Assembly (NCBI GenBank): GCA_947561395.2 | Contig: OX387190.1 | Span: 39,730,392 to 39,794,391, forward strand | Source of the DNA: Buxus sempervirens | Taxonomy: Eukaryota > Streptophyta > Magnoliopsida > Buxales > Buxaceae | Reading direction: 5' to 3' | Length of the DNA stretch: 64,000 nt | Made by a program: the position numbers and the translations under genes | Shown here: piece by piece, positions 1,208 through 32,488 of the stretch | How the letters are laid out: every line of letters starts with the position of its first letter | Position numbering within the stretch: position 1 is the first letter of the stretch | Notes under the pieces: model-generated | The model's database searches: none | Seen by the model: the letters and a program-made list of their open reading frames with translations, nothing else | Told to the model about the DNA's origin: nothing

Positions 1208-3311
1208 TTGTAGTATAATTCAAAAGGCTTCGGCTTAGAAGCTCAAGAGGCTTCAGTTTAGAAGTTCAAGAGGCATCAATTTATTATATTAATGCTCAAC
1301 ATAAAACTGATGCATTAATGGCAGTCTCTTGGACTACCCATCCCCTACACTGTAAAGAGCTTGAGAGGAAGAAGACCTTAAGTTCTATTTTTGTTTTAGG
1401 TGAGCTCCATTCCATCTAAGAGAGTGAGAATCGTTCAAACTGCGTTTGGGAAAAATCCGGTTTTGAGGAATTGGTTATTCATAGCCTACTTGGTGGGTGG
1501 CTTTCTACATGGTTTTTACCTGGTGTATGCTTTTTTCATTTATATGTTTACAGTATTAATTATAGTTCTATAGGAATTTGACTATTCTTATTTTCTCCTA
1601 TATATTAGTCCCCTTATTAATGGTGTTCAATAGTTTTTATGCATTAGCTCTTATACTTTGATGACAGTTTATGGTTGTAATATTTGTACTAAATCAAAAT
1701 TATTGAAATTTCATTGTACAACAAAACTTGAAATATTGAATTTGAAAATTTTAATTTTTGATGTTCATTAGTGTGTATTCTACTACTCCTAAAAGAAAAA
1801 ATCCTCAATTTTCGTCACCAATCCTTTTTTCCCTATTCTTATCATTAAAATTACAATGCTATCCAAAAGTTTTTTAATAATCCATCAGTTTCTAATAGAT
1901 TATATTTTAACTAAATGTTTTGAAAGGGTTAAGTAGTCCATTAACATATAAAGAGTAATCGAATGTAGTCGTACGATTTTAAAAGAATTTTCCCCACTTT
2001 ACCTTCGATTTGTATTCGCTAGCAACTATGATTTCAATTAATTTGCAATAAATATATTTAATTAATGTTAGATAACGGATGCATTTAATGATTAATTGTA
2101 TCAGTTAACGTTATTTGCCAAGTTAGAGTCTGTAACTACTCTAACTTTACAAATTTCAACTAATGATACATTTTAACCATTATCTCTCTAAAATCTATTT
2201 AAACTTTTCTATTTCTTTGTCTTGCCATCTTTATCTCCACCCATGCACTCGCCCATCACGGAGCCATCTTGGCCTACAGACTGTGAGCTCTTCCAACCAA
2301 GCAGCTCATAACCAGTAACCAAATTTTTCCACCGAAATCTCACATTCGTAATCTTTTATCCTTCGCATATGAGGTCCTATGTGTATGCTTTCAAATGGGT
2401 TTTGGATGTACACACCAACAAGCTCAGATCTCAAGATGTTGATTTAGGCAAGTGCCTTTGAGTGTGGATCACTTACACTACTTTATGTTCTGTTTCCTTG
2501 CTCTCCTGTACTTCAAAGGAAAGATTGATGACAAAACCATTAGGGTGATCGAGGCAAACTTAGAGAAGCACCAACATGTATAAAAGTAGATGTTTGAAGG
2601 GATTCAAAAGGTGATAAAAGATGGAAAGAGATCAAAGACAAGAATTTGCAGAATATGCCATATATGAAGGTTGTAGTTTTTGAGGTTTCAGCAGGCATCT
2701 ACTGATGAACTTGTAATGCAACCGATGAACATGCATCTCGTGATAGTTGATTATAAACATCTTGGTTATATCATAGGAAATTTATGATATGAAAAATTTT
2801 AAAAATATATATCTCTGACAATTACTTATTTCGATTGATCGTCTTAACTATTTCTTCTTCCAGTAATTTAAAGTTAATAGGAAAGCAACAATTTAAAAGG
2901 GTTTGATAGAGATTAAGAAATAAATCTTTTTGATAAGTACTTGTTTGGATTGATCATCTTGGCTCTTAACTCCTTGTTCTTTCAATAATTTAATATTAAT
3001 GGGAAAGCAAAAATTTTAAGGAATTTGATAGAAATTAAGAATAAGGTTACTTAATTTGTAATTAAGACAATTTTATATGATAAGTTACTATGCCTGCTCT
3101 TTGTTTTTTATAAATAATGATCCAGAAAAATTAATGTTTTAAGACTTAGTTTAGTGCATTCCTTTTTAGTGAGAATAACCATTGAGTATTTTTCTGTTTT
3201 TTTTTATATACATTAGACACCCTCTTTTATGTGAACTAAAGGGCAAAATAGCAACCCAACATTAAAAGAGTAACACAACAAATTAAAACACCATTAAGAA
3301 AAGCGTTAATT

Positions 3312-3481
3312 TATTATATAGATTATAAAATATGTTAACAATTCTCAATTTCTTAAGGTTAAAAAAGTAACTTTTGACATATTGAGATACATAGATAAAA
3401 AAATATAAAGTTTCTCCCTAATGTCAATAATTGTCATTCAATTGTAATTAATCTCAATTATTAATGAGACAATGAAAAGTT
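3312..3481 (+). repeat. Direct dispersed repeat, copy 2 (about 165 bp)
   Basis: Second copy of the 1041-1207 sequence, same orientation, about 2.27 kb downstream. It suggests that the surrounding element is a nested or duplicated structure. Confidence 0.75.
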
Positions 3482-3963
3482 TTGTGACTATTCATCTTTA
3501 TCACTCTCAAGTTATGTCCTCATCCTCTTTTTATTTTCTCTAACTCATGATAAAAGTTAATTATGAATGAAAACTTTGTAACCACTATTTTCTTACTTTT
3601 TAATAATTAATTTTTAGTAAAAAATACAAAAGGCTTTAATTTAGAAGTTCTAATAGACCAGACCACGTTGGTGGGTAACATTTGCCATTTATATGATAAT
3701 CTCATATCATATTTTTTTTCAAATTTGATGATTCATTTCAGATTTCATTTGCTTGTAACTTTTTTTCTTATGCAAGTTGTTTGATAACCGCTCTTTATCG
3801 TTTATATTTCAATTAAAGGACAAGTCAATATATTTGATATATTGTGTGTTGTTAGATTTGGTTTGAAAATCACATGGTCGCCTACTTGGATTGTGAATCA
3901 TTGGTTTAAGACTCATTCATTCCTTCTCAAGTCTGAGTTATAAGCCCTTAATAATTTATTTGC

Positions 3964-4500
3964 TCTTTTTTTTTTTTTTTTTGAAAGAAAATTCAAGGGG
4001 TTAAGGCCAAGACCCCAACTTGTATATTAATGAAGCAAAGGATGTACAAGAGATGGGATAAAAATCCCTAGGAAAAAAAATAAGAGGCGGAAAGGAAGAT
4101 CTAAGTCCATTTAAGAGAACAAACATAGTGCAAGCCTAATTTATCTAATCCATATAAACCATAGGCAGACTTGGGCAAATCCCTTGTTGAGGGGTAGGTA
4201 GAAGATGCACTATGAACACCATTTTTAGCCAACATATTAGCAACTTTATTAGTTTCTCTAAAAACATACTAAATAGAATGATTAAAGGAGTGAAGAAAAA
4301 GACTTAATCTATAGCAAACAATAATTCAATTTCTAGAGGTAAGCCGATGAACCATCCAGCCAATTGACTAAATTCTTTGAATCAGATTCAATAACGAGAA
4401 CATGGAAGCCTCTTCCATGCTGATGATAGAGATTAAGGCCAACAAGGAGACCATAAACCTCAACTTCAATGTTGGAGCAAGAACCAAATAAATGAGAGAT
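3964..4500 (-). mobile_element. LINE 3' fragment with RNase H remnant
   Basis: Read on the minus strand, 4355-4495 encodes a decayed RNase H-like segment. It includes EVEVYGLLVGLNLYHQHG followed by VLVIESDSKNLVNWL, the typical C-terminal RNase H of plant non-LTR retrotransposons. The element ends in a poly(A) tail, seen as the T run at 3968-3982 on the plus strand. It is 5'-truncated and interrupted by stops, so it is a dead copy. Confidence 0.65.
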
Positions 4501-5073: not shown

Positions 5074-8000
5074 TTAGGCAGTTGCAACAGTCATGTGCTT
5101 CTCAATTGTCTGGTTTAACTCTTCCTTTTTTGCACCCACAACTTTATCCACAGGCTTTCCCTCTTTCAAGAACAGAAAGGTTGGCATTGCCTCCACAGAC
5201 CATTCCTCAGCAACAGACTGAAAATCACATGTCCTGATGGTCAAATGTAATGATAACCAAGGCTATATTCTGTGCCGTCTAATGACGTAGTCGAAAGCTA
5301 CCTCTGGTTTTAGAATTTGGAAAAAATAAAAAAGCACAATTCATATGCATGAGAGATTCATTCACCTTCAATTCATCCACGTCCACCTTGAGGAAAATAA
5401 CATGAGGCAATTTCTTGGCCAGCTCTGACAGGATTGGGGCAATAATACGGCATGGTCCACACCATGAAGCAGTAAAATCAACCACCACCTGCACAAGCAA
5501 ATGATAGATTACATTTGAGTATGTTGATGTCAAGTACTCTACATGTGTGCACGCACGCTCGCACATGCAGATGGTTGATGATGAGTAGCAGCATCTACTG
5601 GGAAGGAGGTGCTACAAATTGAAAATGGGTGTCATTTGGAAGTCATTTTGTACTGGCTTGAAAAAATATGCCAGTCTGCTAACATTGTGTAAGATTTTAT
5701 GTCAACAAATAAACCAAACAAACGTCCATGAAGGGGCATCTTTATTCCCCCCGGAGGATAACATAAATGATAAAATCATTCAGGAACACAAATGATTTGG
5801 TTCTTTGTCCATCTCCTTCTTTTATAAGAGAAAAATAATGTCATTCAGTATACAATGCAAAAACAAGAGCATCAAATGGAACATAAATTATGCAAAATTA
5901 GGTTAAGTGTACAAATTTCCAACCCAATTTCTCAAAATGGTGAGTTCCCATTTGATTCATCAACCCACCAAAAACAATTAATAAACTATAGTTACTCGAA
6001 CAGCAAAAAACATTCACTAAAGATACAGTAATTCTACATAATCAGTTAATTCATACCTAATCAGGTGAAGAATACAACCAAAAAAAAAAAATTTTAAATT
6101 CCCCGATCCTGTAACAGAAGGTGCATCTTAATAATTCAAACGAAGAAAATATTGCGAGAATTATGAAACGTGCAGCCTATGACAAGGTTTAGCTACTTAG
6201 AAGACAATTTTTGGGACCACCCGTTTCACAGATAGAAAAAAAAAAAGGTCATTTGGACCAGGTGAACTTGGTCCTTGAACATTATATTAGTAATTTCTTG
6301 AGCTTGCAGATGATAAAATCATTCAGGAACACAAATGATTTGGTTCTTTGTCCATCTCCTTCTTTTATAAGAGAAAAATAATGTCATTCAGTATACAATG
6401 CAAAAACAAGAGCATCAAATGGAACATAAATTACCCAAAATTAGGTTAAGTGTACGAATTTCCAACCCAATTTCTCAAAATGGTGAGTCCACATTTAATT
6501 CATCAACCCACCAAAAACAATTAATAAACTATAGTTACTCGAACAGCAAAAAAATTCACTAAAGATACAGTAATTCTACATGATCAGTTAATTCATACCT
6601 AATCAGGTGAAGAATACCAAAAAATAAAAAAAAATTTAAATTCCCCGATCCTGTAACAGAAGGTGCATCTTAATAATTCAAACAAAGAAAATATTGCGAG
6701 AATTATGAAACGTGCAGCCTATGACAAGGTTTAGCCACTTAGAAGACAAATTTTTGGGACCACCCATTTCACAGATAGAAACAAAAGGTCATTTGGACCA
6801 GGTGAACTTGGTCCTTGAACATTATATTAGTAATTTCTTGCGCTTGCAGATGATAAAACGAGCAACATAGGCTCATCAATAATCCAGGAAAAAAAAATAA
6901 AAAGTAAAAAACAAACAAAGCGTAAAACTCATAAGAAAGGCATAATACTTCACACTGTGGAGGAAGACAAATTGAATACAATCTACCACAAATGAATCAT
7001 AAGATATAACATGGATCGATGAATCAAGAGGCCACAGGTAGAATAAAGGAGATTTATGAGTTAAAAGCACATGCCTTATGGCAAAAAACTACAATCAAGA
7101 ATTATAACAGTGCAGAGTACACCATTTCTTAAATACAACTGAGATGATTAATCTCACTATGTCTATAAAAAATTATATTGGGTTGTAACCAATTCAAATC
7201 TATCAAACAAAAAATACCATTTGCTTACCACTAAAAACGAGACATTACTAATTTGATAATAAGTAATGAATCAGATCATATAAAGTAGAATAAACCATCG
7301 AAAGAAACTTGTTGAGGTGAGCACCCTGCCCATAAAACAAAAAATACCAAGAACTAAACGGCTCCGGATCCTCTGTGCATCAAATCCTCTGTGTAGCAGA
7401 GGATCCTCTGTGCAGCACCATTGAACGGACCAAATTAATTTGGGCCAATTCTCTATGTATGGAGGTACCTTCGGCTTATATTGGGGTACCTTAGGCTTAG
7501 AAGGAGGGTACCTTAGGCTAATTTTGGTGACTGCATATGGCTTACCATGGGGGGTACCTTAGGCTTATATGGGAGGTACCTTAGGCTTACATGAGGGTAT
7601 CTTGGACTTAGAGTAGGGTACCTTAAGCTTATTTTGGGGGGTACCTACCACGATTTAGGGAGGTACCTTCGGGTTATAGTGGGGTACCTGAGGTACCCCG
7701 TATTTGACAGAGGTACTCCATTGTTAGGCCAAAGGTACCTCCATGAAAATGATTGGGTACCCCAGTATTTGACAGAGGTACCCTATTGTTAAGCTTTAAA
7801 GGTCAATTAGGGGCTATCAAATATGGGGTACCCCCATGTTTGCCTGAGGTACCCTAGTATTTGATAGAGGTACCCCATTGTTTGCCTAATGTACCCCATA
7901 TTTGATAGCCTTCATTTAATTTGGACCGTTGGATTGCGCTGTAGTTTGCTTCACAAAGGATCTGCTACACAGAGGATCCGTTGCAGAACTAAACAACCAA

Positions 8001-13525: not shown

Positions 13526-13530
13526 ATCAT

Positions 13531-15838
13531 TGTTTACACCCTGTACCGATCAACGAATAAGATAAGGCCATGTGATATCTACATGGCCTACTGAGGCCAT
13601 GTCATAAACACACGGATGCTTTGTTCAGTCAGATAGGCCACGTCAGCATACACATAGACCGAGAGTTTAGTTAAGGCAACGCAAGCCTATACGACGAACC
13701 ATACTCATGTTTATCAAAAGATCGTGTCATCGGTCGTTTGAGGATAACCAATTTAAGATCGTGGCCGAACAGTTATCTTTCATGAGCAGAAGACTGCAGA
13801 TGACCAACCTCCATGAAGATCGTGCAAGAGTGGGACGTTGAACAACCGTCAAAGATTGGCTATAAAAGGCACAAACTCGAAGAGCTCGAGCACACAATCC
13901 ATCCAACTGCAATCGGTTATAATATTATTTTGATCATCCATGATCTTTATCCCGTCTCCTACACTGTAGCCAGAAGGATAAACTAGGACTTCTCTCACTG
14001 CTTCCAGTTGCAGTGACACCTTCGACCCCTGTTTACTCCGATTCACGCCAGAATCCTGCCACCGGAGAGTAAGTTGAGGCTGCCCCTGACTCGTAGTTTT
14101 GTACCCCGATCACGATTACAGAATCCCGAACAGCCAGTCCCGAGACTTACTTTGATCAAGCCAGGTGACTTGCGTATTTTCGGTTAAACAGCAATCCTAG
14201 GTGAACCCCCGAATTGGCTTTGTTAGCAGCCGCCCCCTCCTCCTGTTCTTATACTCCGATTACAACTATAAGACCAGAACAGGCCGGTCCTGCAAGCTTT
14301 GTCAGTTTTCTTCTTACTTTTTGTTCCCTTTTGGGGATTATCTGTTGTAGCTTACGGCCATTGGCCGATTTTATAGTAAAGGAGTTTTGTGCCATTAGTT
14401 GCTTTCAATTTCAAACACTTACAAGAACCCAAACGAAGACCGAACCCCTAGTCTTCATATTATCGCCTGACCGGTTTTATTACAGGTGACTTGCAGTACG
14501 ACTGAATCGACCCCCCGGTTTAGATTCGGAACAGGTGCCCGAGGTCAGGACCCAACCCGAAATCATTGTATCAAACGATACTGACACGCCCGCGCAGAGA
14601 CACATCATCAACATCGCCATATGTCCACACCAGCCCAATTCCGAAGGAACATCCCTTTTTGCCGCCATTAGTGCTCTTTCAAAGACTAAGGGTCTCACCG
14701 GGCGTGCCAAAAAGGGATGTTCCTCCAAAATTGGGCCGATGTGGACACGTGGCGATGTTGATAATGTGTCTCTGCGCGGGCATGCCAGTATCGTTTGATA
14801 CAATGATTTCGAGTCGAGTCCTGACACCGGGCACCTGTTCCAAATCTAAATCGGGGTGTCGGTTTAGTCGTACTGCAAGTCACCTGTAATAAAACCGGTC
14901 AGGCAATAATATGAAGACTAGGGGTTCGGTCTTCGTTTGAGTTCTTGTAAGTATTTGAAAGCGAAAGCAACTAATGGCACAAAACTCTTTTATTATAAAA
15001 TCGGCCGATGGCCGAAAGCTACAACAGATAATCCTCAAAAGGAAACAACAAGCAAGAAGAAAACTGACAAAGTTTGCAGGACCGGCCTGTCCTGGTCTTA
15101 TAGCTGTAATTGGAGTATAAGAGCAAGAGGATGGGGTGGTTGCTAACAAAGCCAATTCGGGGGTTCACCTAGGATTGCTGTTTAACCGAAAATACGCAAG
15201 TCATCTGGCTTGATCAAAGTAAGTCTCGGGACCGGCTGCTCCGGATTCTGTAACCGTGATCGGGGTACAAAACTACGAGTCAGGGGCGGCCTCAACTTAC
15301 TCTCTAGTGGCAGGATTCTGGCGTGAATCAGAGTAAACAGGGGTCGAAGGTGTCACTGCAACTGGAAGCAGTGAGAGAAGTCATAGTTTATCCTTTTGGC
15401 TACAGTGTAGGAGACGGGATAAAGATCACGGATGATCAAAATAATATTATAACCGGTTGAGGTTGGATGGATTGTGTGCTCGAGTTCTTCGAGTTTGTAT
15501 CTTTTATAGCCAATCTTTGACGGTTGCTCAACGTCCCACTCTTGCACGATCTTCATGGAGGTTGGTCATCTGCAGTCTTCTGCTCATGAAAGATAACTAT
15601 TCGGCCACCATCTTAAATTGGTTATCCTCAAACGACCGATGACACGATCTTTTGATAAACATGAGTATGGTTTGTTGTATAGGTTTGTGTGGCCTTAACT
15701 GAACTCTCGATCTATGTGTATGCTGACGTGGCCTATCTAACTGAACAAAGCCTCTGTGTGTTTATGACATGGCCTCAGTAGGCCATGTAGATATCACGTG
15801 GCCTTATCTTATTCGTTGGTCTGTATAGGGTGTAAACA
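13531..15838. mobile_element. 2.3-kb palindromic LTR-like element with 5-bp TSD
   Basis: Two arms of about 1.14 kb (13531-14666 and 14701-15838) are inverted copies of each other around a spacer of about 35 bp. The outer ends are TGTTTACACCC and GGGTGTAAACA, so the element reads TG...CA. It is flanked by the direct repeat ATCAT at 13526-13530 and 15839-15843. TG...CA ends and a 5-bp duplication are hallmarks of integrase-mediated LTR-retroelement insertion. Each arm carries a TATA box in the U3-like position, oriented inward (TATAAAAGG at 13861; TATAAAAG on the minus strand at 15508-15501). Corresponding 91-codon open frames in the two arms differ at about one residue in six, so the arms have diverged. 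No gag, pol or transposase is visible. Boundaries are seen directly; origin is inferred. Confidence 0.85.
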
Positions 15839-15843
15839 ATCAT

Positions 15844-18437
15844 GTAGTTCAAGCCTTCAACGGTCTTCCCTCCTTTTGGAGTCGTTTGTGTAAACAACCC
15901 AAATCAAGCAAAAATTAAAATTTGGGCTAATTCAGTTAAAAATTTTGGACTTTAATTTTAATTTGGTTCAATTGTGGGGTTTGGGAATTTTGACGCTGTT
16001 CCCATCATTTTCAGTTCAACTTGGGGACGCATGTGGGCGCTGGCATGCTAGCATCGGTGCCGATGCAAGGAGTCGGAAACTTTTGACCCCAGCGCTGATC
16101 ACACGCAGAACCAGATGGGTTGCAATTCAGATACGACCCAACCACCTGTAGATTTGGAGACTTTTGATCCAGTGATTGCTTAGAAGATTGGGGTTTGTCC
16201 TCCAAGGTTCTTTCCCCAATTTTATGGCAACATAGACGACGGGCACGATGGTGGTTTCTAACCATCAAGCATGGATGGTTTGATTGCCGCCTTTAAACCA
16301 ATAAATCAAACCAATCCAAACCTATCAAGTTCAATTTTTTTGGGGGTGTATTAATGGATCTCAGTTCGATTTCGATTTTATATTAGAACAAACCGATTCA
16401 ATTTCAGTTCAGTTCTGGTATAAACATTCTTACTTGTGGCATGCACATGTTGCCTTTGAATCTATTCCACCAACGGTCAAAACCATATTCGGTGACATAT
16501 GTATAAACAAACATTCCTGCTTGGGGCATCAACATGTTGCCTTTAAATCTTTTCCACAATGGTAAAAAACATATGCTACCTATAATTTTGATTTTAGGTC
16601 TCATTAATTGTGGGCTTAACATATGAATTAAAGTAGAATCTATAAATATTTGAGATCCTTTTTTTTTCTTGGTAAATAAACATGGAAGAAGGGGGCTACC
16701 ACTGTGGGCCCGAGCATGACCACAATGGCTTCTTCCCCATTGCACAATATTCAGATTGGGCCATAGCTACCAAATATCCCTGTTTTAGTTGGGGAGATTG
16801 GACCATCATCACAACACCACGAAAATGCAAATGGGATGGTTTAATTTATTAGTTAAATCGATAAACCAAACATATTGGGTTCAATTTTGGGTTTGTATTA
16901 ATCGATTGTAGTTCTATTTCAATTTTATATTGAACCAACTAATTCAAATTTTTTTCATCTCTATATTAACTAATAGGTTTGGTTCCAATTTTTTTCAAAA
17001 CCGATCCATTGCCATCCCTAGTCTATATCTATCTATTATAGTGAGAGTAGTCCCTTGGGAAGCTTGACAACAACTATACAAAACTTTCCCAAAAAACCCT
17101 TACCATTTGTTTGTTTAGGCATAATTAATATAGGGTTAAAATAGTAAAAACTATACCTATTCATTCAAATCGTTGCAAAATTGTTCCCTGACTCTACCTG
17201 CTGTACTACACGTGTACCCTGCTAGTTGTTATTATCATGTTTATGATATCCATTGGTTGTTTATGAGTACATACGACAACATACAAGATCCCGACCATGT
17301 TAAGTAGTCAATAACATTTATATAAAAAGAAAAAGATAAAAAATAAAAAGGAAAAGAAAAGGAGTACCAATAACATGACAAAATAGAACCTCACATATAT
17401 CTTATACTTTTTAGCATAGTTGTATTTATTATAAATCTTTAAAATTAATAAAATCTATGACTAAAAAACCATTCTATTACATCACGATATGGCCCCATCA
17501 GAGCAAGAAAGTCAAGATCTTTTAAAATTTTGATTTAATGGAACATGGCTCCGAAACCATTTTAACGTCTTATTATCTCAAAATACCTGTAATTTTCTTA
17601 TCAACTATTTATTAATTCAATAAATAAAAAAATAACATAATATTTTAAATATGACCTAATTTACTCAGTGGGTATCTAACGAGCTGCTGTTTATATATAA
17701 AAATAAAAAAGAAAAAGGAAAATCTAACGAGCTGCTGTCGAACCAATTCTCAGTGAGCCCGTTCAACAGAGGGGGAAATATAAGGAATAAAAGGAAGAAG
17801 AAAAGCAAAAACCTCAGCCGGCTCACAGCGCCTTGGGATGAAATCGTCTGCCGTGTGGCAGACTTTTGCAGCGGGCGCGGCCGGTGTCTGTTTACATCTT
17901 TAAACGTGAAAAGGCATTTTTATATTGAAAAAAAAAAAAAAAAAAAAATATTCCAACAAAAAAAAATATTGAAAAAAATAGGCCGTGAGATGTTGCCCGT
18001 GGCAATATCTAAGGCAGCTGCGAGATATTCTTGCAGCAGACGATTTCAACCCAGCGGCTTACAATTGCTTGCCAGTTGGCTAGCGAACGAATGGTCCAGG
18101 ACTTAACGAACCAAGAGTCGGCTCACAAATTTCAAACAATTTAATACCATAGCTCGCGACCTACCCCACACGTTATTGCTTGATATCACGAGAGAGAGAT
18201 TATATTTCAGATCACAAGCTACGATATTAAGACATCTCTTAAAATCCAACCAGCACGATTGGTGCATTTCGTACGAAGACGTTCCTGATGAACGGTGATG
18301 GAATCACGACATCAATAAAGCATGAAATATCACGCACCAAATCATAGCTCTTAGTTCCAGAGAGAACATCTGTTTTCTCTTTCTATTTTCTGTGTCTGCT
18401 TTCTGTGCATGACTCGGGTGTTGTCTTCCTTCAGTCC
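15844..18437. other. Intergenic DNA and SHL 5' region
   Basis: No gene is recognised. An imperfect tandem repeat of about 80 bp lies at 16420-16560 (AACATTC...GGCAT...ACATGTTGCCTTT twice). AT-rich blocks around 16280-16440 and 16850-17020 resemble internal and terminal parts of hAT-like MITEs; the second ends in TTGCCATCCCTAG, but I could not find a matching partner end. The promoter and 5' UTR of the SHL gene should lie to the left of 18438. Confidence 0.4.
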
Positions 18438-21400: not shown

Positions 21401-24400
21401 CCTTTCTTTGGTTTTTTTTCTATGGCTTAGAGGCATTTATTTTCCTTTGATCCGAATCAATGACATTTGTTTACAGTAAATATTATGTAAATAAATAGGC
21501 CATTAAAATCTCCTATTCTCTTCTTCTCCGCCAGGTTTCATCCTGCTTGTATAGACATGACTGCGGAGGAAGCCAAAAGACTTGAACATTTCTTTTGCGG
21601 GAGTTGTTCTTCTCAAAATCAAAAGAAATCACATAGCTCTCAAAATGCTTCCCGACAATCAGAGACAAAGGTATACCTATTTGTTGAAATGATGAATAGA
21701 TTTGACCGGTTTGTTTCCCTTGCATTGTTAACTTCTATTTTTTTAATTGTCCGGAAGGGTAGAAATGGATTATGTTACCAACCTAGTTGGGGATAAGAGG
21801 TTGATAATTTTAACTTCACTTTCATGTCTGATTTCAAAAGGGAAGTCATCTGATATCATCTGGTTAATGAAATTGATGGAATGGCATCCCAAATCAATGG
21901 ATAAAATTGTCAACATTGTCAAACTGCCTATCTCCCAGTTTGATTGGCTAAGCATTTGGTCCATCATCTTTTTCATTCTGATGTTTATTTTCATGCATAA
22001 GTTGCTCCCTTAACTGGCTATGACCACTTTGTTTAATATTGTAAATTCTCACGTTAATATGATGTACTCAGTAAGTTTTGAGGTTGAGTGTTTTCCTTTT
22101 TCCTACGTAGTGTTCCAATGACTAAACATTCCATTACCAGAAAGAAAAGGAACTTCTCTTTTATTTCACTACTTTTAATGAAAGCTTCTATTAATTATTA
22201 AAAAAGAAAAAAAAAGAAAAGAAAGAAAAGGAACCCCAAAAAAAAAAGGAATAAGTATTTAGATTGGAGATTTCAAATCTGTTAATGTTGGTGAAATGGA
22301 TGCGTTTCACAGTTGCTTTTAGGAATGGTGGATAAGAGGACCAGGACTCTGTCCATGTCATCAAGCTGAAGAGCAATTTTATTCAATTGATAAACAATTT
22401 TGTTAAATTCAATAAACCGTTCATAAACACATGCACCATCTATCATCTCAAGCATGTTCAAATTTCAATGGCTTCTTCAGGTAGGGATACAACTTGGTTC
22501 AGTTTGGTCCAGTTGACATCAAGCCAAAACCAAATCAAGCTTCTTGACTATTAACTTAAAACTGAACTGAACTGAATTGAGAACCAACATTTTGAACCTA
22601 AAAACTGAACCGAAATTAAACTAGAAACCCTAAAACCTAGTTGAACAGTGAAAGGTCAAAAATTACAAATGGTGAACAGTAAGTGGGTTTTATACCCACA
22701 AGCTAATTAAACTAATTACATCAACAATCAACAATTAACACTACTAATATCTAACACTCCCCCTCAAGCTGAGGCATAGATATCGATCATGCCCAGCTTG
22801 CAAAGAGAAGATCTCAGAAGAGAAGGACCAACAGGCTTGGTAAGAACATCTGCTGTCTGCTCTGAGGATGGCACAAAATGAGGAACTATAGCACCAGACC
22901 GAACTTTCTCCCGAATAAAGTGAACATCTATCTCAATGTGTTTAGTTCTCTCATGTAGAACAGAATCAGATGCGATCAATATTGCTGACTTGTTATCACA
23001 GTATAGAAGTGAAGGTAACCGAACAGGAAAGCCAAGCTCTCCAAGAATAGAGTGAAGCCACATAATCTCACAAGTGCCCTGGGCCATAGCTCTATACTCA
23101 GCTTCTGCAGAAGACCGGGAAACCACAGATTGCTTCTTACTTTTCCAGGAAATAAGATGATTCCCATAAAAGGAACAAATACCAGACGTGGATCTCCTAT
23201 CGGTTTTAGACCTAGCATAGTCCGCATCAGAGAAACACGAGACATCGGAGGAAATGGTGGAATCATAAAAAAGACCAAGGCCTGGACAAGACTTAAGGTA
23301 CCTCAAAATATGATAAACTGCATCCATATGAGCAGTCCGTGGTGCATGCATAAACTGACTCACCAAGCTTACAGCAAAGGCTAAATCAGGCCGGGTATTG
23401 GTCAAGTAGATAAGCCTCCCAACCAATCTCTGATAGATACGAGGATCGGGTAAAAGATCACCAGACTCAGCTGAAAGCTTGATATTAACATCCATAGGAG
23501 CAGATGCCGGTCTACATCCTGTCATCCCGGTATCACTCAAGAGATCTAAGACGTACTTCCGTTGAGAGAGGGAAATACCACGCTTTGATCTAGCGACTTC
23601 AATGCCCAGAAAATACTTCAGATTACCCAAATCCTTAATGTCAAAAACTGAACTGAGGTCCTTCTTGACCTGAGTAATCCCACCATCATCATCTCCAGTC
23701 AAGATGATATCATCAACGTAGACAGATAAATATACACACTTTCCTTTAGGATTGCGCCGGAGAAAGCATGTATGATCATTATGACATCTCAAAAAACCCA
23801 TGTTGAGAACCACATCACTGAACTGAGCAAACCAAGCTCGAGGGGACTGCTTCAACCCATACAGCGATTTCTTCAGACAACAAACCATGCCGGCAAACTC
23901 CCCCTCAGCCCGAAAACCCGGAGGAGGATCCATGTAGATGACTTCATCGAGATCCCCATTTAAAAAGGCATTTTTAATATCCATCTGGTGGAGGGGCCAG
24001 GAGTGAGAGGCAGCAAGAGAAATCAAGAGCCGAACAGTGGTAAGTTTGGCGATTGGAGCAAATGTAGCAGTAAAGTCCTTGCCAGGCACCTGAGTAAAGC
24101 CCTTAGCAACAAGGCGGGCTTTAAAGCGACTAACAGTCCCATCAGCATGATGCTTGACACTAAACACCCATCGACAACCGACTGGTTTCTCCCCCTCAGG
24201 AAGAGGAACCAAGTCCCACGTGTGATTAGCCTGTAATGCCCTCATTTCCTCCTGCATAACAGATGTCCAAACCGGACTAGAAAGAGCCTCCCCAACTGAC
24301 CGTGGAATGGAAATAGAGTCAACGGCCCCAAGAAAACCCTGAAAAGATGTAGATAAAGCACTATGCGACATATGCCGCTCAATGGGATGGTTAGTGCTAC

Positions 24401-27400
24401 AAGATAAGTTAAGACGATCAGGGGGCCGACGATCCCGGAGAGGGTTTCGTCGAGGGGAGGTAGAGGAGGAGGGAGAGAGAGTACCTTCATTCGGAGAGGA
24501 GATTGGTAAGGGGGGCCGAGGGCGACGGCTATACTGAAGAAGGGGAGGACCTGCAACAGAAGGTGAGGTGTCCAGATAAACAGTGCTAGTATCAGTAGGG
24601 GTATCAGCAGAAACACTAGTAGGCGGATCAAAAACAGGAAGAGGACAAGGTATGGATGGGCCACAGGAAGGCGGCGAGCTGCCCTGAACATCAAGGGAAG
24701 AGAAAAAAGGGGTAGACTCCCAGAAAGTGACATCAAGGGAGGTGATTAGACGCCCAGAGGAAGGGTCAAAACATCTATACCCTTTGGATTGGGAGGCATA
24801 ACCCATAAAGACACAGCGGATGGATTTATCGTCAAGCTTTGTTCGAGAAGGATGCCGATTTTGAACAAAGCAGACACATCCAAAAACTCGAAGAGGAAGG
24901 AGAAACAAGGGTTTATCGGGCTGAAGAACACTAAGTGGAGAAGAACCTCCCAGAACTTTGCTAGGAACCCGGTTAATAAGGTAAGTGGCTGTAAGCACAG
25001 CCATATGCCAGAACGACTTGGGGACAGACATTCCCCGAAGGAGACATCGGGTAACGTCCATAAGATGACGGTTTTTGCGTTCAGCTACGCCATTTTGTTC
25101 AGGGGTATAAGGACAGGTGAGCTGGTGTAGAATGCCCAAGTTGGACAAGTGAGCTACAAGATCATTGGTGAGGTATTCCCCCCCATTGTCAGACCGAATA
25201 CCCCGAACAACAGTGGAAAACTGAGTTTTAACCATAGTGAGAAACTGGCACAGAGTAGCAAAGACATCAGATTTTTTCTTAAGCAAATAAACCCAAGTAC
25301 ATCGAGAAAAATCATCAATAAAAGTAACATAATACCGATGACCAGAACTAGCAGTAACGGGGGAGGGCCCCCAAACATCAGAGTGAATTAAATCAAACAT
25401 AGTGGGAGAGCGATGCATACGAGAAATATAAGGCTTTCGACAATGTTTCGAAAGTTCACACACATGACATTTAAAATGAGATTGTTTGCAAGCAACAGAC
25501 AGACTAGGAAACATTAAACAAAGATACTGAAAATGAACATGACCCAAACGAGCATGCCACAAAGGAATGTCATGGGCAGAAACAAAAAAAGGAAAGTCAA
25601 AACACAGGAGTAGTAGCAGCACGCAGAGCATGGTCAGGAGGCTGAGAAGGCGGTGGATCGCCAAAGTAGTATAGTCCATCACGCTCATACCCCTTGCCAA
25701 AAATCCTCTTCGAAGTCCGGTCCTGCAAGAAACAACGATCAGGTAAGAAGATAACAGCACAATCAAGGGATTTTGCAAGACGACTAACAGATAAAAGATT
25801 AAAAGCAAATTTTGGGACATGAAAAACAGATGAAAGAGTGATATTTGATGAAAGTTTGACTGCGCCTTCACTACTAATCGTAGCAACGGACCCATCAGCT
25901 AATCGAACAGATCTATGAGTATGAGTCAAGGGGGAAGAAAAAAAGGATAACTCACCCGTCATATGATCATTGGCACCAGAATCAAGAACCCAAGAGGGGG
26001 ACTCAGAGCGAACGTGGAAGGCAGTGGGGATACCTGAGGATAAAGTAGTGGTGGAGCCTGGTAATGACAGTTGGGCAATCTGGGCTTGAAGTGCTGCCAC
26101 CTGAGCAGAGAGGGAAGGGGCAGGAGGCTCTGTGGTCTCGGCAACAGCAGCAGCTCTAGGAGGGAGGCCAGTCTTCTTTTGGAATTGAAGCTTCAACTCG
26201 GGGTGAAGTTTCCAGCAAGTTTCCTTAAGGTGTCTGGGGTTCCCACAATAGCGACAGGTCGACCGCCTTTTTCCAGAAGGACGAGTATTAGACGAACCTG
26301 CTGAGATAGCAAAGGCCATCTGATCTGTAACCTCACCAGTAGGTGGTATCGCAATAGGAGTGGAAATAAGGCGTCGACGCTCTTCCTGATCAATCATCGC
26401 AAATGCATCCATCAAAGATGGAACTGGAGTAGAGTTTAGAATCTGGGTGCGAAGATTCTCAAACTCGGGTTTAAGCCCCATAAGAAAAGCATAAGTATGA
26501 AGACGATCCAACTTCTGAACCGCCACAGAGGCCATCGTCCCAAAGTCACTGACGGGATCATACTGAGCCATCTCATCCCAACGAGTCTGTAGGTAGCCAA
26601 AAAACTGAGAGACAGTCAATCCAAGGCTCTCCTGAGTGGCACGGGCAACCTCCTGGTACAACTCAAAGTGCCGAGCCTCATTCCGGGAATGAGCATACAT
26701 CGCAGTCAAAGTAGTCCAAAGACTAGCAACATTCTCATGATACATAAACATATTGAAGATATGTGGCTCCATAGAGCCATAGATCCAACTCAGAATGAGG
26801 CATTTATCAATATCCCATTGATCTGCCTTAGGATCATCATCAGCGGGACGTGGAGCTTTTCCCAAAAGCCAAGCAGACTTACCTCGGCCACCAATAAACA
26901 ATTTCAAGGACCGAGACCAAGCTGCAAAATTACGTCCATTCAACAGAACACTGGTAACTCTTCCACCGGTTAGAGGAGGTGCCAAATCCAAACGGGCACT
27001 AGATGATTCTGCCATGGAGAATCAAAGGAATAACCAGGGAAGAAAGGAAAAAACAGCCCTTAGGGCATCAACAAGTCGCAAACGACTTCACTTTTTTGTC
27101 TTGTGAGATGCAACGAGAAATGGAGGATCCAATCTCGAGCTTCAGCAAAGCCCTAGCTTCGTTCTACAAACACCTCCAGACCAGCTGCGAAGCCCTCAAG
27201 GAATCTATTGAAAGGCGACCCATCCCTCTTGATTCAGCGTCTTCAACCTTCGTACAATGCCTCAATCGACGAGTTTCTTCCGCAAATAAGGAAGGTCCCT
27301 GCGTGCGCGCGAGAAGAGGGGAAAGAGAGGACCTGTGCGCGCGCGAGAAGAGGGGAAGGAGAGGACCCGCGCGCGCGCGAGAAGAGGAAGGAAGGGCCTG

Positions 27401-30400
27401 CGCTGCGCGCGCGCGAGAAGTGGAGAAGAAGGACCTGCGCGCACGCGCGAGGAGAAAGAGGGAAAACGAGGGTGCTGTGCGGGGAAGAAGAAGAGGAAAG
27501 TTGGGGACGGTGGTGCTGTGCAGCGGCGGCGGCGGTGGCGACGGAGGTTGGTTTTTTGTTTGTTTGCTCTGATACCAAGTTGAACAGTGAAAGGTCAAAA
27601 ATTACAAATGGTGAACAGTAAGTGGGTTTTATACCCACAAGCTAATTAAACTAATTACATCAACAATCAACAATTAACACTACTAATATCTAACAAACCT
27701 AACCAACCAAACCCATATTAAAAATTCGGTTCTGTTTGGGTTGGTTTAGGTCGTCTGCCACACATTATATAGTTTTTGAGGTTTTGACAGGATCCTTAGA
27801 AACCCTTTTAATATCAATCCAAGCCCATATTATATGCATCTTGATCTACATATCCTCTCCTAAACGAGTTTACTAAACACCTCAAATCTTCTCATCAGGC
27901 CTAGAATAATCATAGAACAGAAAAAAATAATAATAATAAGAGAGAAAGAGAGAGGAAAAAGGTAGTATTTAGTACTTTCTAGAAGCCACAAAGAACGACA
28001 TCTGAAGTTCTCCATCTATAAACCAGGTTTAGTTCCCTCCTTGAAAAATTTGGAAATGTTACTTGGGAATGCTCTCAAAGACATGCCCTAAAATACAAAA
28101 AACCCTCCATGGGGCCTTCATAGCCTTCCTACTCTTGCAACAAGGGTAAACAAGAGAAAATGAGAGCTGTTACTGAAGGTTTTAGGAAAAATAACAGAGG
28201 CAGGAGGAAGACGGTAGAATCTGGCAAAACGGCACTGAAGGTTTTGACATTGCAGAAAAAAAAGGGTAAATAAACCCCAAAATAGACAGCCAAAATAATT
28301 GTAAATGGTGAAAAATGAATAAAGAAAAGGAGAAAAAAGAGTTCAATCCTGTTGTTTTAGTTTGAGGTTTTGAGATTTGAAACTTTGAAGCTCTCTGTGA
28401 AGAACTCTATGTTTTTTTAGATGAAGATGGCAATGGCTGGATAAATATAGCAATGATGATGGTAGCAACTGCAAGTGCTGGGACTCCTGGAATGAAATCC
28501 TTTCAACTCTAGAAAGATAGAAAGTAGAAACCCTAAATATTAGGGTTTAAAAGTTTAAAATTTAAGTGACTTCAATCACAATTTCTCTATCATCTATGAG
28601 GCTAGGGCATGAAGAGTTAAAATAAAGTTGCAGTTTGTATCATAATTATGGTATAATAATGATAACGCACATGTACACACACGCAAACTCCACACACACA
28701 CACTCACAGTTAGGGCTGCAACTCAGTGCGGTTTGGTTCGGGTTGGCCTCAACCCAAGACCAAACCAAGGTTACTGATGGTCGGCCCAAAACTGAATTGA
28801 ACCGACCTTAGAACTGAAATACCCAAACCGAAAACCAAACCGATTATTTAAAGAAAACCCGTAACCCAACCCAAACCGAATTGTTCGGTTTGGGTCATTT
28901 TCCCATACTTAAAACCTGTTATCAAGAGAGAGATTCCTACTTTTGCCAAAAAAAATTTTAAAGAATACATACAACAAATTTAAATGATCATCACTTACAT
29001 GCGGTTCAATCTCTTAAGTAGTTCACATGCATACATAAGATGGAGCAAAGAGCTTAGAATCCCAAGTCATATGTTAATTGTTTTGGATCACACTTTTGAG
29101 CTCATGAATCAATTTAATAATTAACTACAAAATTGATAAAATAATAATCTTATTCATTATTTTATAACTTATAATTTATAAGTTATATTTTATTATTACA
29201 ACTTTATCTATTGTATATTTTATATATATTAATATATTTCGGTTTGGTTCAATTCGGTTTTACACTGAGGAAATTCAGTTTGGTTAACCTGAGCCTTCAA
29301 CCCAAAACCGAACCAAACAAATTCTTTTAACAAATTTGGTTCTCTATTTTTAGAACCAAAACCTACCCAAAGACTATATAACCCAAATCAAACCGATCCA
29401 AAGTCGGGTTGGACCGATTTGGTTTCAATTTTAACCGACCCAAGTTGTAGCCCTACTCACAGTTGAGGAAAATATATCAAATATTTGAGTTTTGGTTCAG
29501 TTATGTTTTGAGATTTTGGAACTAAAACAGAACCAAATGTGTTGGAACCAAATCCCACCTGACACAAAATTGGTTTGAATTAGTCGGCTGACCATAGTTT
29601 CACCCCTAGCTTCAAGTATGGTCCAATTAGGGACTTTGTCGTGTCATGGTTGTCTTAGAGGATATTTGTAGAATTCTCAATGATAATGCTATATAACATT
29701 TCATCAGCAACACAAGCAAATATCACCACAGCCCTCTAGTCATAATCTTCCATCTAACATATGGGCACGGTATGGTCTTCTTTTGTAATGGCTTGTGAAA
29801 ACTCTATTAGATTACTAGATATTGAAATTAGCAAAATCTATTCCTCCTTTAAATTATCTGAATCAAAATTTGTAGTTGATATCATGACTCGATGACAATA
29901 GCTTACTTGTTCTATAGTGTCAGGAGCAAATCCTTTTACTATACATGCAAGAGGCAGGGTTAGTGGTCCGTCTCAGTTTTGTTGTCTGTTCACCCAGAAA
30001 TCTGGACCTTCTGGCATTGGAGGTCATTAGAGCTGTAATTTGCATGCATATTTTGGTCCTATAAGGAGTGTTCAATGAGGGCAAAAATATACACCTTATT
30101 GAAAGGCCTGAGGGGAGCAAGGTCACTTGGGATATTGGATTTAGTAGCAGAAGGTGACTCTTCAAGGGTGATTTCACTTGGGGAGAAAGGCTTGATATTA
30201 TGACTCGATGACAATAGCTTACTTGTTCTATAGTGTCAGGAGCAAATCCTTTTACTATACATGCAAGAGGCAGGGTTAGTGGTCCGTCTCAGTTTTGTTG
30301 TCTGTTCACCCAGAAATCTGGACCTTCTGGCATGGGAGGTCATTAGAGCTGTAATTTGCATGCATATTTTGGTCCTATAAGGAGTGTTCAATGAGGGCAA

Positions 30401-32488
30401 AAATATAAACCTAATTGAAAGGCCTGAGGGGAGCAAGGTCACTTGGGATATTGGATTTAGTAGCAGAAGGTGACTCTTCAAGGGTGATTTCATGGATGGC
30501 TGATATATCGAGTTGTTCATGGAGGTTGTCTCACCTTGTTCAATTGGCCAAAGATCTAGCACAAGAGTTGAATACCTTGTTCAATCGTTTGATTAGACAA
30601 GCCAATGTTTTAGTTGATATATTGATACAGGTCGGGGTGAGGAGATATTGTTTACTGGCTTGCCTTCTGAGGTATGTTGTTTGGGTGATGTGAGTTCCAT
30701 TTTTTCCTTTTTTTTTCTTCTCTTGTGACTAGGTGGCTTTAGACACTTGAATTTATCCTTTTAGCTTTCTAGGGTTGCTTCCATGCTCGTTGACTTCCGT
30801 TCATCTGGTAAGCAAACACTAGTACATTCTTCTATTAATAAAGAATTATGATTCATTATATATATATGATTATAAAACTTTGAGGTTTATGTTTTCACCC
30901 GATTGCAAAATCTGACTTTAAAGTTTTACAGCTTTGCAAAATTGCCTTGACCAAGGTTTTTACAATGTGTGAAAAATAATTAGGGAAGTCGGAAGGGAAA
31001 CAAACCACAACTCTAAAATTTATATGGTTCACCCAAGTCAACAGTTTAATAGGCAAAGTTTATCTAAAGAATTTCCACCATACGATGAAGATTATACATG
31101 CAAAAAATTAAAATAAGTCTATTCTAGAACCCAATAGAACCCCTTAAACAGAAGCCAAACAACTGAAGTTGACTAGAACACACAACATTCTCTGAAGCAG
31201 TTTAGTCAGAGAGTGATCTTGCACAAAGAATACACACAAATCCAGCTTAAAAGAGAGATTGTTCATAAAATATCTAAAACAGGGTCAATAAAAATTGGCT
31301 AGTCTGATTCTGTTCTAACACAATTGCACTCACATTGCAGGAGCTTTTATTAAATGTGTTGCAGACTTATTCAAACCTTAGATCTCTCAAGTCTTAGTTA
31401 CCTGTAACAGAGAAAATCTTTGATTCTAACTCTAAAGAAAAATTTTCAAGTGTACAGGTTTTTATTTATTTATTTATTTACTCGTGGTTGAACATGATAT
31501 TATATTTCAGACTCCTTATGTAACTAAAGCATGATAAAGACAATGTTATTTCTATATTTTTTGTGGGTTTGAAAGCTCATTCATTGGTTTGTGCAAGCAC
31601 GAGGCTCATCTTTGGTGATGTTTGGACTTCTTGGCCCTTTGATTTTTTATGGGGCATAGAGTCCACTATTGCTTTAAATACATTATTCGATGGGAGATCT
31701 ATCCCATTTGAGATGTTTTATCAGTGGATTGAAGTCCATTCATAAGTTTATGGTTAGGAATCCACTGACATGGATGGAAGAAATCCTTAATGAAACCATG
31801 TGAAAAATTTTAGACTCATTGTTTAAAGTCTGAGAACAGGGGTCATTGTTGTTTAGTTCTATGCTCTTCTTGGCTGATTAATTTGTTTGACAGCATATTC
31901 TTGATAAAGTGAATATGGATCGTCAGGTTGTGAGACGCAAAGACTTGCAAATGGGCTTAAGGCCCTTGAAGTTGTACGTTGTGGATCATTTCGCACTTTT
32001 CTATGGGTTTTAGGACCCAACAGGTTTTATTAAATGGAGTCAAAATGCCCTTATTTTTCTTTTATTGACTTTGGATTTGAGCTCAAGGCTACCTGTAGAT
32101 TGCATATTCAAACTTAAGATCTGTTTTCATGAAATCTTCTGGGGGGCTCAGGACTCAAAAGATACATTAAATGGAGTTAATATTACTATATCTTGAATTT
32201 TTATTATGGTGAATTGTTGTTAATGAGCTGAAAGCCTTGTTAGTTGAGGAAATCTATAAAGTTGCTGAATTATTTGTAATAATCTGTTGATGGTATAATC
32301 TTTTGGGTTGAAAATCCAACTCATATTTTAGAATAGGACCCGTTCTGTTAGGTTAGAGTCTCATCCTTTTACAAGCTCAGCAGCAACAAATATAGTACTC
32401 ACTTCTAATGATCTTATTGTTTATGTACCTCCACTGAAATGCATGATGATGTTGTCAGGTGGACACAAAACGCAGGAGGAGGCGATAA
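18438..32488 (+). CDS. SHL: SHL-type BAH-PHD histone-reader protein
   Basis: Five exons (18438-18510, 18611-18953, 19204-19272, 21535-21670, 32459-32488) close in frame to 216 residues. The BAH domain spans about 25-140 and includes [22 protein letters not shown]4HC3 PHD finger follows (C141, C143, C156, C159, H164, C167, C183, C186). The pair SHL/EBS in Arabidopsis are nuclear readers that bind H3K27me3 through BAH and H3K4me2/3 through PHD and repress flowering. The phrase [20 protein letters not shown] favours SHL over EBS. The final exon has ten codons including the stop and adds a basic tail, VDTKRRRRR. It lies 10.8 kb downstream because intron 4 (21671-32458) contains a copia retrotransposon and other repeats. 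If intron 4 were not spliced, the frame would run on and stop at about 21796. Confidence 0.92.
19830..20290 (-). mobile_element. LINE reverse-transcriptase fragment in SHL intron 3
   Basis: The minus-strand translation contains [20 protein letters not shown] followed by [13 protein letters not shown] and GIIEGRLPV. This is the stretch after the catalytic motif in plant L1-type reverse transcriptases. Frames shift and stops occur on both sides, so it is a dead internal fragment. It sits in reverse orientation inside intron 3 of the SHL gene. Confidence 0.8.
22480..22638. mobile_element. hAT-like MITE remnant, left half (split by copia)
   Basis: This AT-rich block with repeated GAACTGAA/ACCAAA words and a leading TAGGGATACAACTTGG resembles the 28711-29455 element. 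It stops abruptly at the copia target site AACCT, and similar sequence resumes at 27696, so the retrotransposon landed inside it. No clear right terminus was found after 27760. Confidence 0.5.
22639..22756 (-). repeat. Copia 3' LTR (118 bp)
   Basis: Identical to 27578-27695. A TATA box (TATAAAA on the minus strand, 22694-22688) marks U3. The outer boundary is set by the AACCT target duplication. Confidence 0.95.
22757..22765 (-). other. Polypurine tract
   Basis: On the minus strand, GAGGGGGAG sits immediately before the 3' LTR, where the plus-strand primer of an LTR retrotransposon is expected. Confidence 0.85.
22764..25620 (-). pseudogene. Copia pol: integrase, reverse transcriptase, RNase H
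   Basis: The long frame (open from 25895 down to the stop at 22764) carries the zinc-binding N-terminus of integrase (WHARLGH ... CHVCELSKH). The catalytic core follows ([25 protein letters not shown]). Then come RT with [11 protein letters not shown] and RNase H ([17 protein letters not shown] and [13 protein letters not shown]). The order is that of Ty1/copia. The first 90 or so codons of the frame, 25895 to about 25620, overlap the upstream gag-protease frame and look non-coding. It therefore lacks its own start and is joined to gag by a one-base frame change near 25600. No stop interrupts the domains. I call it defective in this copy unless the shift is programmed. Confidence 0.93.
25597..27015 (-). 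CDS. Copia gag and protease
   Basis: A 472-residue frame starts [11 protein letters not shown]. It carries a UBN2-like gag region, a CCHC zinc knuckle ([16 protein letters not shown]2CX4HX4C, at about residue 254) and an aspartic protease with [13 protein letters not shown] at about residue 341. It ends at TGA just before the integrase zinc-binding region, in a different frame from the rest of pol. Most copia elements encode a single polyprotein, so this is either an indel (a T7 run lies just downstream) or an unusual frameshift design. Confidence 0.93.
   Translation of the reverse strand: MAESSSARLDLAPPLTGGRVTSVLLNGRNFAAWSRSLKLFIGGRGKSAWLLGKAPRPADDDPKADQWDIDKCLILSWIYGSMEPHIFNMFMYHENVASLWTTLTAMYAHSRNEARHFELYQEVARATQESLGLTVSQFFGYLQTRWDEMAQYDPVSDFGTMASVAVQKLDRLHTYAFLMGLKPEFENLRTQILNSTPVPSLMDAFAMIDQEERRRLISTPIAIPPTGEVTDQMAFAISAGSSNTRPSGKRRSTCRYCGNPRHLKETCWKLHPELKLQFQKKTGLPPRAAAVAETTEPPAPSLSAQVAALQAQIAQLSLPGSTTTLSSGIPTAFHVRSESPSWVLDSGANDHMTGELSFFSSPLTHTHRSVRLADGSVATISSEGAVKLSSNITLSSVFHVPKFAFNLLSVSRLAKSLDCAVIFLPDRCFLQDRTSKRIFGKGYERDGLYYFGDPPPSQPPDHALRAATTPVF
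27120..27290 (+). pseudogene. Possible captured host-gene fragment in copia leader
   Basis: On the strand opposite to the retrotransposon genes, 57 codons starting at ATG 27120 read [20 protein letters not shown] and continue with [20 protein letters not shown] and [11 protein letters not shown]. The composition looks like a real helical plant protein N-terminus, unlike the low-complexity translation that follows. It recalls a conserved plant family annotated as spindle/kinetochore-associated-like, but I am not certain of that. The frame runs into the GC-rich tandem repeat at about 27290, so it cannot be a whole gene. It lies between the primer binding site and gag, in antisense. Confidence 0.45.
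27294..27460. repeat. GC-rich tandem repeat in copia leader
   Basis: Five imperfect copies of a 33-37 bp unit, each built as GGACCTG, then a CGCGCGCG run, then GAGAAGAGGGGAAGGA. Its GC content contrasts sharply with the AT-rich surroundings. The alternating CG tracts could form hairpins or Z-DNA and would be dense in CpG methylation sites. Confidence 0.9.
27566..27577 (-). other. Copia primer binding site
   Basis: On the minus strand TGGTATCAGAGC directly follows the 5' LTR. This matches the 3' end of plant initiator tRNA-Met, the usual primer for copia elements. Confidence 0.95.
27578..27695 (-). repeat. Copia 5' LTR (118 bp)
   Basis: Identical to the LTR at 22639-22756. The inner boundary is set by the adjacent primer binding site and the outer one by the AACCT duplication. 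Confidence 0.95.
28711..29455. mobile_element. hAT-like MITE, 745 bp
   Basis: Terminal inverted repeats TAGGGCTGCAACT and AGTTGTAGCCCTA are flanked by the perfect 8-bp duplication CTCACAGT (28703-28710 and 29456-29463). TAGGG ends with an 8-bp duplication are standard for hAT elements. The interior is full of ACCGAACC/GGTTTGGT words and has no transposase. It lies in SHL intron 4. Confidence 0.88.
29884..30690 (+). mobile_element. LINE RNase H remnant with 316-bp tandem duplication
   Basis: The plus strand at 30470-30640 reads [20 protein letters not shown] and [20 protein letters not shown], then [14 protein letters not shown]. This is the end of the RNase H domain of a plant non-LTR retrotransposon. 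The upstream part, 29884-30175, is repeated at 30200-30491 in direct orientation with few differences. Stops and shifts elsewhere show that it is dead. It is part of SHL intron 4. Confidence 0.7.
30700..32458. other. Remainder of SHL intron 4
   Basis: No gene or clear element boundary is seen. The block at 30950-31300, with TATATGGTTCACCCAAGTC, looks like degenerate retrotransposon sequence. The acceptor GTTGTCAG at 32451-32458 ends the intron. Confidence 0.4.

Follow-up and report, generated by a model that had tools for sequence, protein, structure and literature searches.

A 2.3 kb palindrome in the Buxus sempervirens genome is best explained as an integrated palindromic cDNA, joined U5-to-U5 and head-to-head, of an ordinary Ty3/gypsy-type LTR retrotransposon. 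The palindrome is located in contig OX387190.1, within the 64,000-nucleotide stretch of DNA that we analysed (hereafter, the window). Aligned with itself, it matches over 2339 positions (E = 0.0), far above chance. The two arms, each a complete LTR of 1121 bp with U3 outward, occupy positions 13531–14651 (forward strand) and 14718–15838 (inverted). Both begin TGTTTACACCC and finish GGAACA, with the left arm reading TGTTTACACCC to GAAGGAACA. Differences between them affect 77 of the 1121 sites (64 transitions and 13 transversions), and no gaps are needed to align them. The initial annotation described a near-perfect inverted repeat of 2.3 kb with 1.14 kb arms. The inverted repeat is real, but 'near-perfect' is too strong, because the arms are only 93% alike. 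Furthermore, arm length is corrected to 1.12 kb, either side of a short, asymmetric centre of 66 nt (14652–14717). Copies of the sequence ATCAT, said to flank both sides, are indeed present at 13526–13530 and 15839–15843. Note that, at even base composition, the chance of one 5 bp match is about 1/1000. It had also been noted that the same U3-like end is outermost twice, in opposite orientation, each time with an inward TATA box. We see this in both arms. The predicted promoter elements, TATAAAAG, are 330 bp inside both palindrome ends and face inward (13861–13868 on the forward strand, and 15501–15508, starting from 15508, on the reverse).

To identify the arms, the genome (676 Mb in 247 contigs) was searched using the left arm. 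The best 40 of 1892 candidates were scored, and the matches listed were 88–100% alike. Thirty loci were fetched; two are the palindrome arms and the other 28 are our comparison copies. Most of the latter (24 of 28) start TGTTTACAC, and 24 of the 26 with a placed right end stop at AACA. Loci were typed as solo, 5' or 3', omitting L008 and L024, for which right ends are unplaced. The 26 loci with both ends placed comprise 11 solo LTRs, six LTRs followed by the spacer and primer binding site (PBS), and nine preceded by a PPT-like tract, AGTAGGGGGCAA or a variant thereof. An exact 5 bp repeat flanks eight of the 11 solo LTRs, and in the remaining three 4 of 5 bases match. Two direct LTR pairs were examined on C11 and both have outer 5 bp duplications: CATAC outside the pair formed by L017 and L057, and GGTAC outside that formed by L058 and L020. 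The respective spans, of about 22.1 kb and 18.7 kb, may include nested insertions because only the outer ends of each pair were examined. Given the direct pairs with 5 bp duplications, and the copies flanked by a PBS or PPT, we conclude that the arm is the ordinary direct LTR of an abundant Ty3/gypsy-type plant element. Hence, a genome search with one arm, suggested in the initial annotation, recovers normal elements that carry the arm as direct LTRs, the outcome named there as favouring a reverse-transcription error.

Ten open-frame fragments of the family were scanned for protein domains. An RVT_1 reverse transcriptase (4.4e-19) is found in L031, downstream of the 5' LTR. Plant mobile domain ORFs, antisense to the element, pass the Pfam cut-off in L034, before the 3' LTR (3280–4467 and 6627–7190, reverse strand). 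A further such ORF, also antisense, is in L033 (1005–1835, forward strand) and falls below the Pfam curated cut-off. One fragment matches a protease model below the curated cut-off, five of the 10 have no domain match, and no integrase domain was found in the 10 fragments. The presence of RVT_1 rather than RVT_2, together with element size, suggests a Ty3/gypsy element of the Tat or Ogre kind. The 18.7–22.1 kb span, and the antisense plant-mobile-domain ORFs, only suggest such a lineage. Two pairs of LTR copies, L004/L005 and L009/L018, have the same or near-same flanks at different places, and short branches in the second tree described below. These are likely to be segmental duplications rather than separate insertions.

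Next to the LTR, normal 5' copies have the spacer TCCCTTTT, the PBS TGGCACGCCCGGTGGGAC and the leader CCTTAGTCTTTGAAAGAGCACTAATGGCGGCAAGAAGAAG, with point variants among 18 loci. Note that these loci were chosen by an exact 14-base leader motif, and that their agreement within it simply reflects this choice. The palindrome departs from this arrangement. Past the left LTR, the sequence TCCCTTTTTG is followed by leader, PBS, spacer and LTR, all in reverse. Briefly, TCCCTTTT plus TG (14652–14661, forward strand) takes the left arm to the tRNA-primer start, and no more than 2 nt into the PBS. The leader segment (14662–14691, reverse strand) is 30 nt long, reads CCTTAGTCTTTGAAAGAGCACTAATGGCGG in element order, and matches the 18 loci with point variants. 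Alignment with the same loci places the PBS, TGGCACGCCCGGTGAGAC, at 14692–14709 and the LTR–PBS spacer, TCCCTTTT, at 14710–14717, both on the reverse strand. The reversed PBS has a single A, at a position that is G in each of the 18 aligned loci. Thus, the centre contains spacer, PBS and 30 nt of leader; nothing else from the 18.7–22.1 kb element is present. At the joint there is a 3 nt microhomology, TTG, the final bases being compatible with both sides. Since TTG fits the left arm and the reversed leader alike, the joint is placed within 14658–14661. The tRNA-primer start, between 14659 and 14660, falls inside this interval. During reverse transcription, the complete minus strand begins at this point, and the plus strand meets the primer there. 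Hence, allowing for the 3 nt ambiguity, the left arm ends at a landmark of cDNA and not of chromosomal DNA.

Our preferred explanation, which we hold to be probable, is a primed jump of plus-strand strong-stop DNA, either intramolecular or between two RNAs of the same particle. Such DNA would consist of U3-R-U5 followed by TCCCTTTT and 0–2 nt from the tRNA primer. Having missed its normal transfer, its 3' end would anneal at CAAGAAG in the leader of the plus strand, 57 nt past the LTR end, and be extended. The extended strand would copy leader, PBS, U5 and R, make the usual R-to-R jump, and then copy U3. PPT-primed synthesis would complete a double-stranded linear molecule terminating in U3 on both sides. 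Finally, integrase would take the two U3 ends and insert them at ATCAT, with the normal 5 bp duplication of the family. Because all but the PBS and 30 nt of leader has been lost, the jump is likely to have occurred at the strong-stop stage. The initial annotation had proposed snap-back reverse transcription and insertion by two U3 ends. That model fits best in outline, and the centre refines it by setting the jump at the tRNA-primer, or strong-stop, stage. The 'snap-back' itself is less secure, since a jump between molecules, or end joining, would look identical.

Potential base pairing at the joint was measured after the event, and the result depends on the strand end assumed. If the plus strand ended at TCCCTTTTTG, a 7 nt pairing with the leader is possible at the joint (including one G–T wobble). 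In all seven leaders tested, the joint is then the first 7 nt pairing site past the LTR. Equal or better pairing occurs at just 7–9 of about 1500 positions, and at 0.4% of positions in 8 kb of L031. Conversely, an end at TCCCTTTT gives a 5 nt run, equalled at 35–47 of about 1500 positions, with some of these nearer the LTR. For this reason, we would give the pairing argument for a primed jump moderate weight.

The same joint could also be made by end joining between an unprocessed U5 cDNA end and a broken end, about 57 nt inside another cDNA of the same source, before the action of integrase. This is the strongest competing origin, although an unlikely one. Joining of unprocessed cDNA ends is known from retroviral 2-LTR circles. 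Moreover, the left arm stops where a blunt unprocessed cDNA would stop, and microhomology end joining leaves a joint like the 3 nt overlap seen here. However, a random break within about 60 nt of the LTR, in a cDNA of 18.7–22 kb, has a chance of only around 0.3%. The longer possible pairing favours a primed jump, while also being compatible with microhomology-mediated joining. We also considered autointegration. Joints formed in this way start at the processed CA end, and the joint here is 7–10 nt past the processed CA; this candidate was rejected.

At their outer ends, both arms terminate at exact U3 ends that adjoin a direct 5 bp repeat, of the duplication length typical for the family. These features argue for one integrase event using two U3 ends. 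We infer the order of strand events described above, insertion by integrase rather than repair, and use of two U3 ends by the integrase of this family. Alternatively, a normal insertion could have been rearranged afterwards, by inversion, template switching or recombination with a neighbouring copy. In favour of this, two of the 28 other loci, L007 and L028, have a second LTR within 1.5 kb in opposite orientation, with U5 ends facing. In L007, the opposite LTR (63–869) is older, from a related subfamily, and the pair is 84% alike; the main LTR, preceded by a PPT-like tract, is of the 3' type. In L028, the opposite LTR (249–1056) is again older and from a related subfamily, the pair is 72% alike, and L028 has a repeat of its own that matches at 4 of 5 bases. 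To judge from these features, these opposite LTRs look like independent insertions. We consider post-insertion rearrangement improbable for the palindrome. A break would be needed exactly at the outer U3 end, with the direct ATCAT repeat kept, and fold-back of the flank would yield ATGAT rather than ATCAT. In addition, the left breakpoint is at the tRNA-primer start and, unlike the neighbour pairs at L007 and L028, the palindrome arms are sisters. No paralogous empty site was found in the genome, where the left flank has only nine short, weak matches. Similarly, no paralogue of the right flank was found; its shared part is a dispersed repeat of about 259 bp, plus one weak match. This repeat, near the right side of the palindrome (window positions ~15996–16255), is 83–86% alike in 39 other scored places.

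Relationships between the arms were assessed by searches and trees. The arms are reciprocal best matches, with the best 40 of about 1890 candidates scored for each arm, so a closer relative could in principle be missed. In two 30-row trees, the arms are sisters with support of 100/97. The first tree contains both arms plus the full set of 28 comparison copies; its right arm is overlong by 3 bases at one end and by 1 base at the opposite end. The second uses exact ends, omits L008 and L024, and adds L057 and L058. Trees constrained to group either arm with L003, which is the next-closest copy, were rejected (AU test, p = 2.6e-9 and 3.3e-5). Five bases are common to both arms and present in at most two of the 28 other copies. 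Reciprocal best matching, and the sister position, indicate that both arms were copied from one template. End branches for the arms are 0.035 and 0.041–0.042, compared to a median of 0.038, and the arms have 17 and 24 private changes. Differences between the arms are evenly spread, with the longest difference-free run being 72, compared to 69 expected. Gene conversion was considered as a reason for the similarity of the arms; because the differences are evenly distributed, no converted tract is visible, and this candidate was set aside. Arm divergence, at 6.9%, falls between the values obtained for the two direct LTR pairs, 4.6% and 7.7%. On this measure, the palindrome appears to be an old insertion, about the age of its direct-LTR relatives. 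These comparisons also bear on whether the palindrome is an assembly chimera or a fold-back sequencing artefact. Fold-back reads are known to produce palindromes. Nevertheless, this explanation is very improbable: near-identical arms would be expected, whereas differences here affect 77 sites and are evenly spread. Both arms have private changes and the target repeat is exact.

We also looked for further palindromes. With a 116-position query spanning the joint, and the best 40 of 396 candidates scored, there was no second full match. The 39 other matches cover only query positions 25–27 to 114–116, which is the normal leader side, and one further row is the self-match on the opposite strand. 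Exact U5–U5 patterns, with gaps of up to 60, occur at this site alone in 676 Mb. Relaxing the U5–U5 anchors to 8 bases gave 11 places, compared to four for a reversed control; by their matched letters, this site alone belongs to the family. There were no U3–U3 pairs, with gaps of up to 60, in the genome. As a yardstick, exact LTR–PBS junctions were found 171 times (85 and 86 by strand), with none in a reversed control. By its letters, the right arm of the palindrome would count among the 171. The seven 5'-type loci, taken from the first 30 fetched, are L004, L005, L008, L013, L017, L023 and L025. Since the 14-base anchor is exact in only three of these (L004, L017 and L025), a diverged second palindrome could be missed. 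Wider palindromes, with gaps above 60, could also escape the pattern searches. Two family LTR–PBS junctions on C8 (G000), at 31855093 (reverse strand) and 31859261 (forward strand), are 4.2 kb apart in opposite orientation. Their LTRs would face by U3, and they are probably two neighbouring insertions.

The initial annotation had offered a foldback DNA transposon as its alternative, with many full palindromes, each having a different duplication, as the sign of a mobile family. Within the sensitivity of our searches, we find none but this one. Long inverted arms and a short centre would suit a DNA transposon of the foldback type, or a palindromic family that propagates. However, the joint has no second full match among those scored, the U5–U5 and U3–U3 patterns have no other site in the family, and the arm is an LTR, with a PBS after it or a PPT before it in normal copies. 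With one close U5–U5 pair in 676 Mb, compared to 171 LTR–PBS junctions, we regard a mobile foldback family as extremely unlikely.

Transcription from the predicted inward TATA boxes, on both sides, would make a hairpin RNA from the palindrome possible, and such palindromes could seed hairpin RNA against their own family. The silencing predicted in the initial annotation gained no support from the base changes seen, since the arms have no excess of methylation-type changes. CHH transitions number 9/293 and 12/293, compared to a range of 6–25 (of about 292) across the 26 remaining copies, and counts of CG and CHG transitions are also inside the range of those copies. Note that transition counts are a weak test of hairpin silencing.

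We compared the palindrome with known systems. A solo LTR is the single LTR that remains after recombination. Solo LTRs of this family share the LTR, ends and duplication length of the palindrome, which differs in having two inverted LTRs plus a PBS and leader. Like TRIM elements, the palindrome combines two LTRs with a very short, PBS-containing internal piece. However, its LTRs are inverted, the PBS is without a PPT, and a further copy was not found. Retroviral autointegration and 2-LTR products are aberrant uses of unintegrated cDNA ends, and the palindrome resembles them in this respect. While a 2-LTR circle joins U5 to U3, here U5 is joined to leader in reverse. Galileo and other foldback DNA transposons also have long inverted arms; the palindrome differs because its arms are LTRs, with relatives bearing a PBS or PPT, and is the only copy found. 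The titles and abstract openings listed, from largely open-access literature, yielded no precedent for an integrated head-to-head LTR palindrome. A close parallel is with complex LTR insertions of Triticeae, attributed to template switching, where, in the sections available to us, abnormal cDNA from reverse transcription is described as inserted as a unit, with 5 bp duplications and similar outer LTRs being diagnostic (Sabot and Schulman 2007; PMC1950507). The palindrome is likewise flanked by a duplication, and its outer LTRs share an origin. As presented in those sections (PMC1950507), the Triticeae insertions have three LTRs in the same orientation and two cores, whereas the palindrome has two head-to-head LTRs, no core, and probable integration by two U3 ends. 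DIRS-1 is likewise a retroelement with inverted terminal repeats; according to the sections available, it has genes between the repeats and a tyrosine recombinase, in contrast to the 66 nt centre and 5 bp duplication described here (PMC5633606). Among other accessible excerpts, one report dropped two opposite-LTR pairs during curation (PMC4600303), another mentions, with no analysis in that excerpt, LTRs side by side in opposite directions (PMC7166211), and two, as far as their excerpts go, are of background relevance only (PMC5371799 and PMC10069891).

The novelty is modest, in that the palindrome is a variant of known reverse-transcription accidents. It is a single readable fossil of aberrant replication, in which the centre records the position of the strand jump. 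Our data suggest that two U3 termini are enough for insertion of a plant Ty3/gypsy-type element. Tentatively, and with the balance slightly against it, a broader claim may be made: that plant Ty3/gypsy-type integrase can insert cDNA with two U3 ends, and that strong-stop DNA can use its own leader as a priming site. If so, a hidden class of LTR palindromes could exist in plant genomes, at a low rate per active family, and would escape annotation tools in which direct LTRs are a requirement. The search image is U5, spacer, short leader, then reversed PBS and LTR, with an outer 5 bp repeat; its use could indicate how often such cDNAs form and integrate.

Other repeats are present in the window. 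A Copia-type element at 22635–27695 (reverse strand) has LTRs of 122 bp that are 99.2% alike, and is probably a young insertion. Two overlapping frames contain its RVT_2, integrase core and gag domains, and a 34 bp tandem repeat is located near its 5' side (27298–27454). At 29876–30492, there are two tandem copies of a 316 bp unit, with 98% matches. Two direct copies of about 550 bp, head to tail and 96% alike, are found at 5767–6858. Finally, positions 42668–47406 contain inverted, diverged duplicates that are 72–81% alike, with ORFs resembling what we take to be pieces of a purple acid phosphatase gene.
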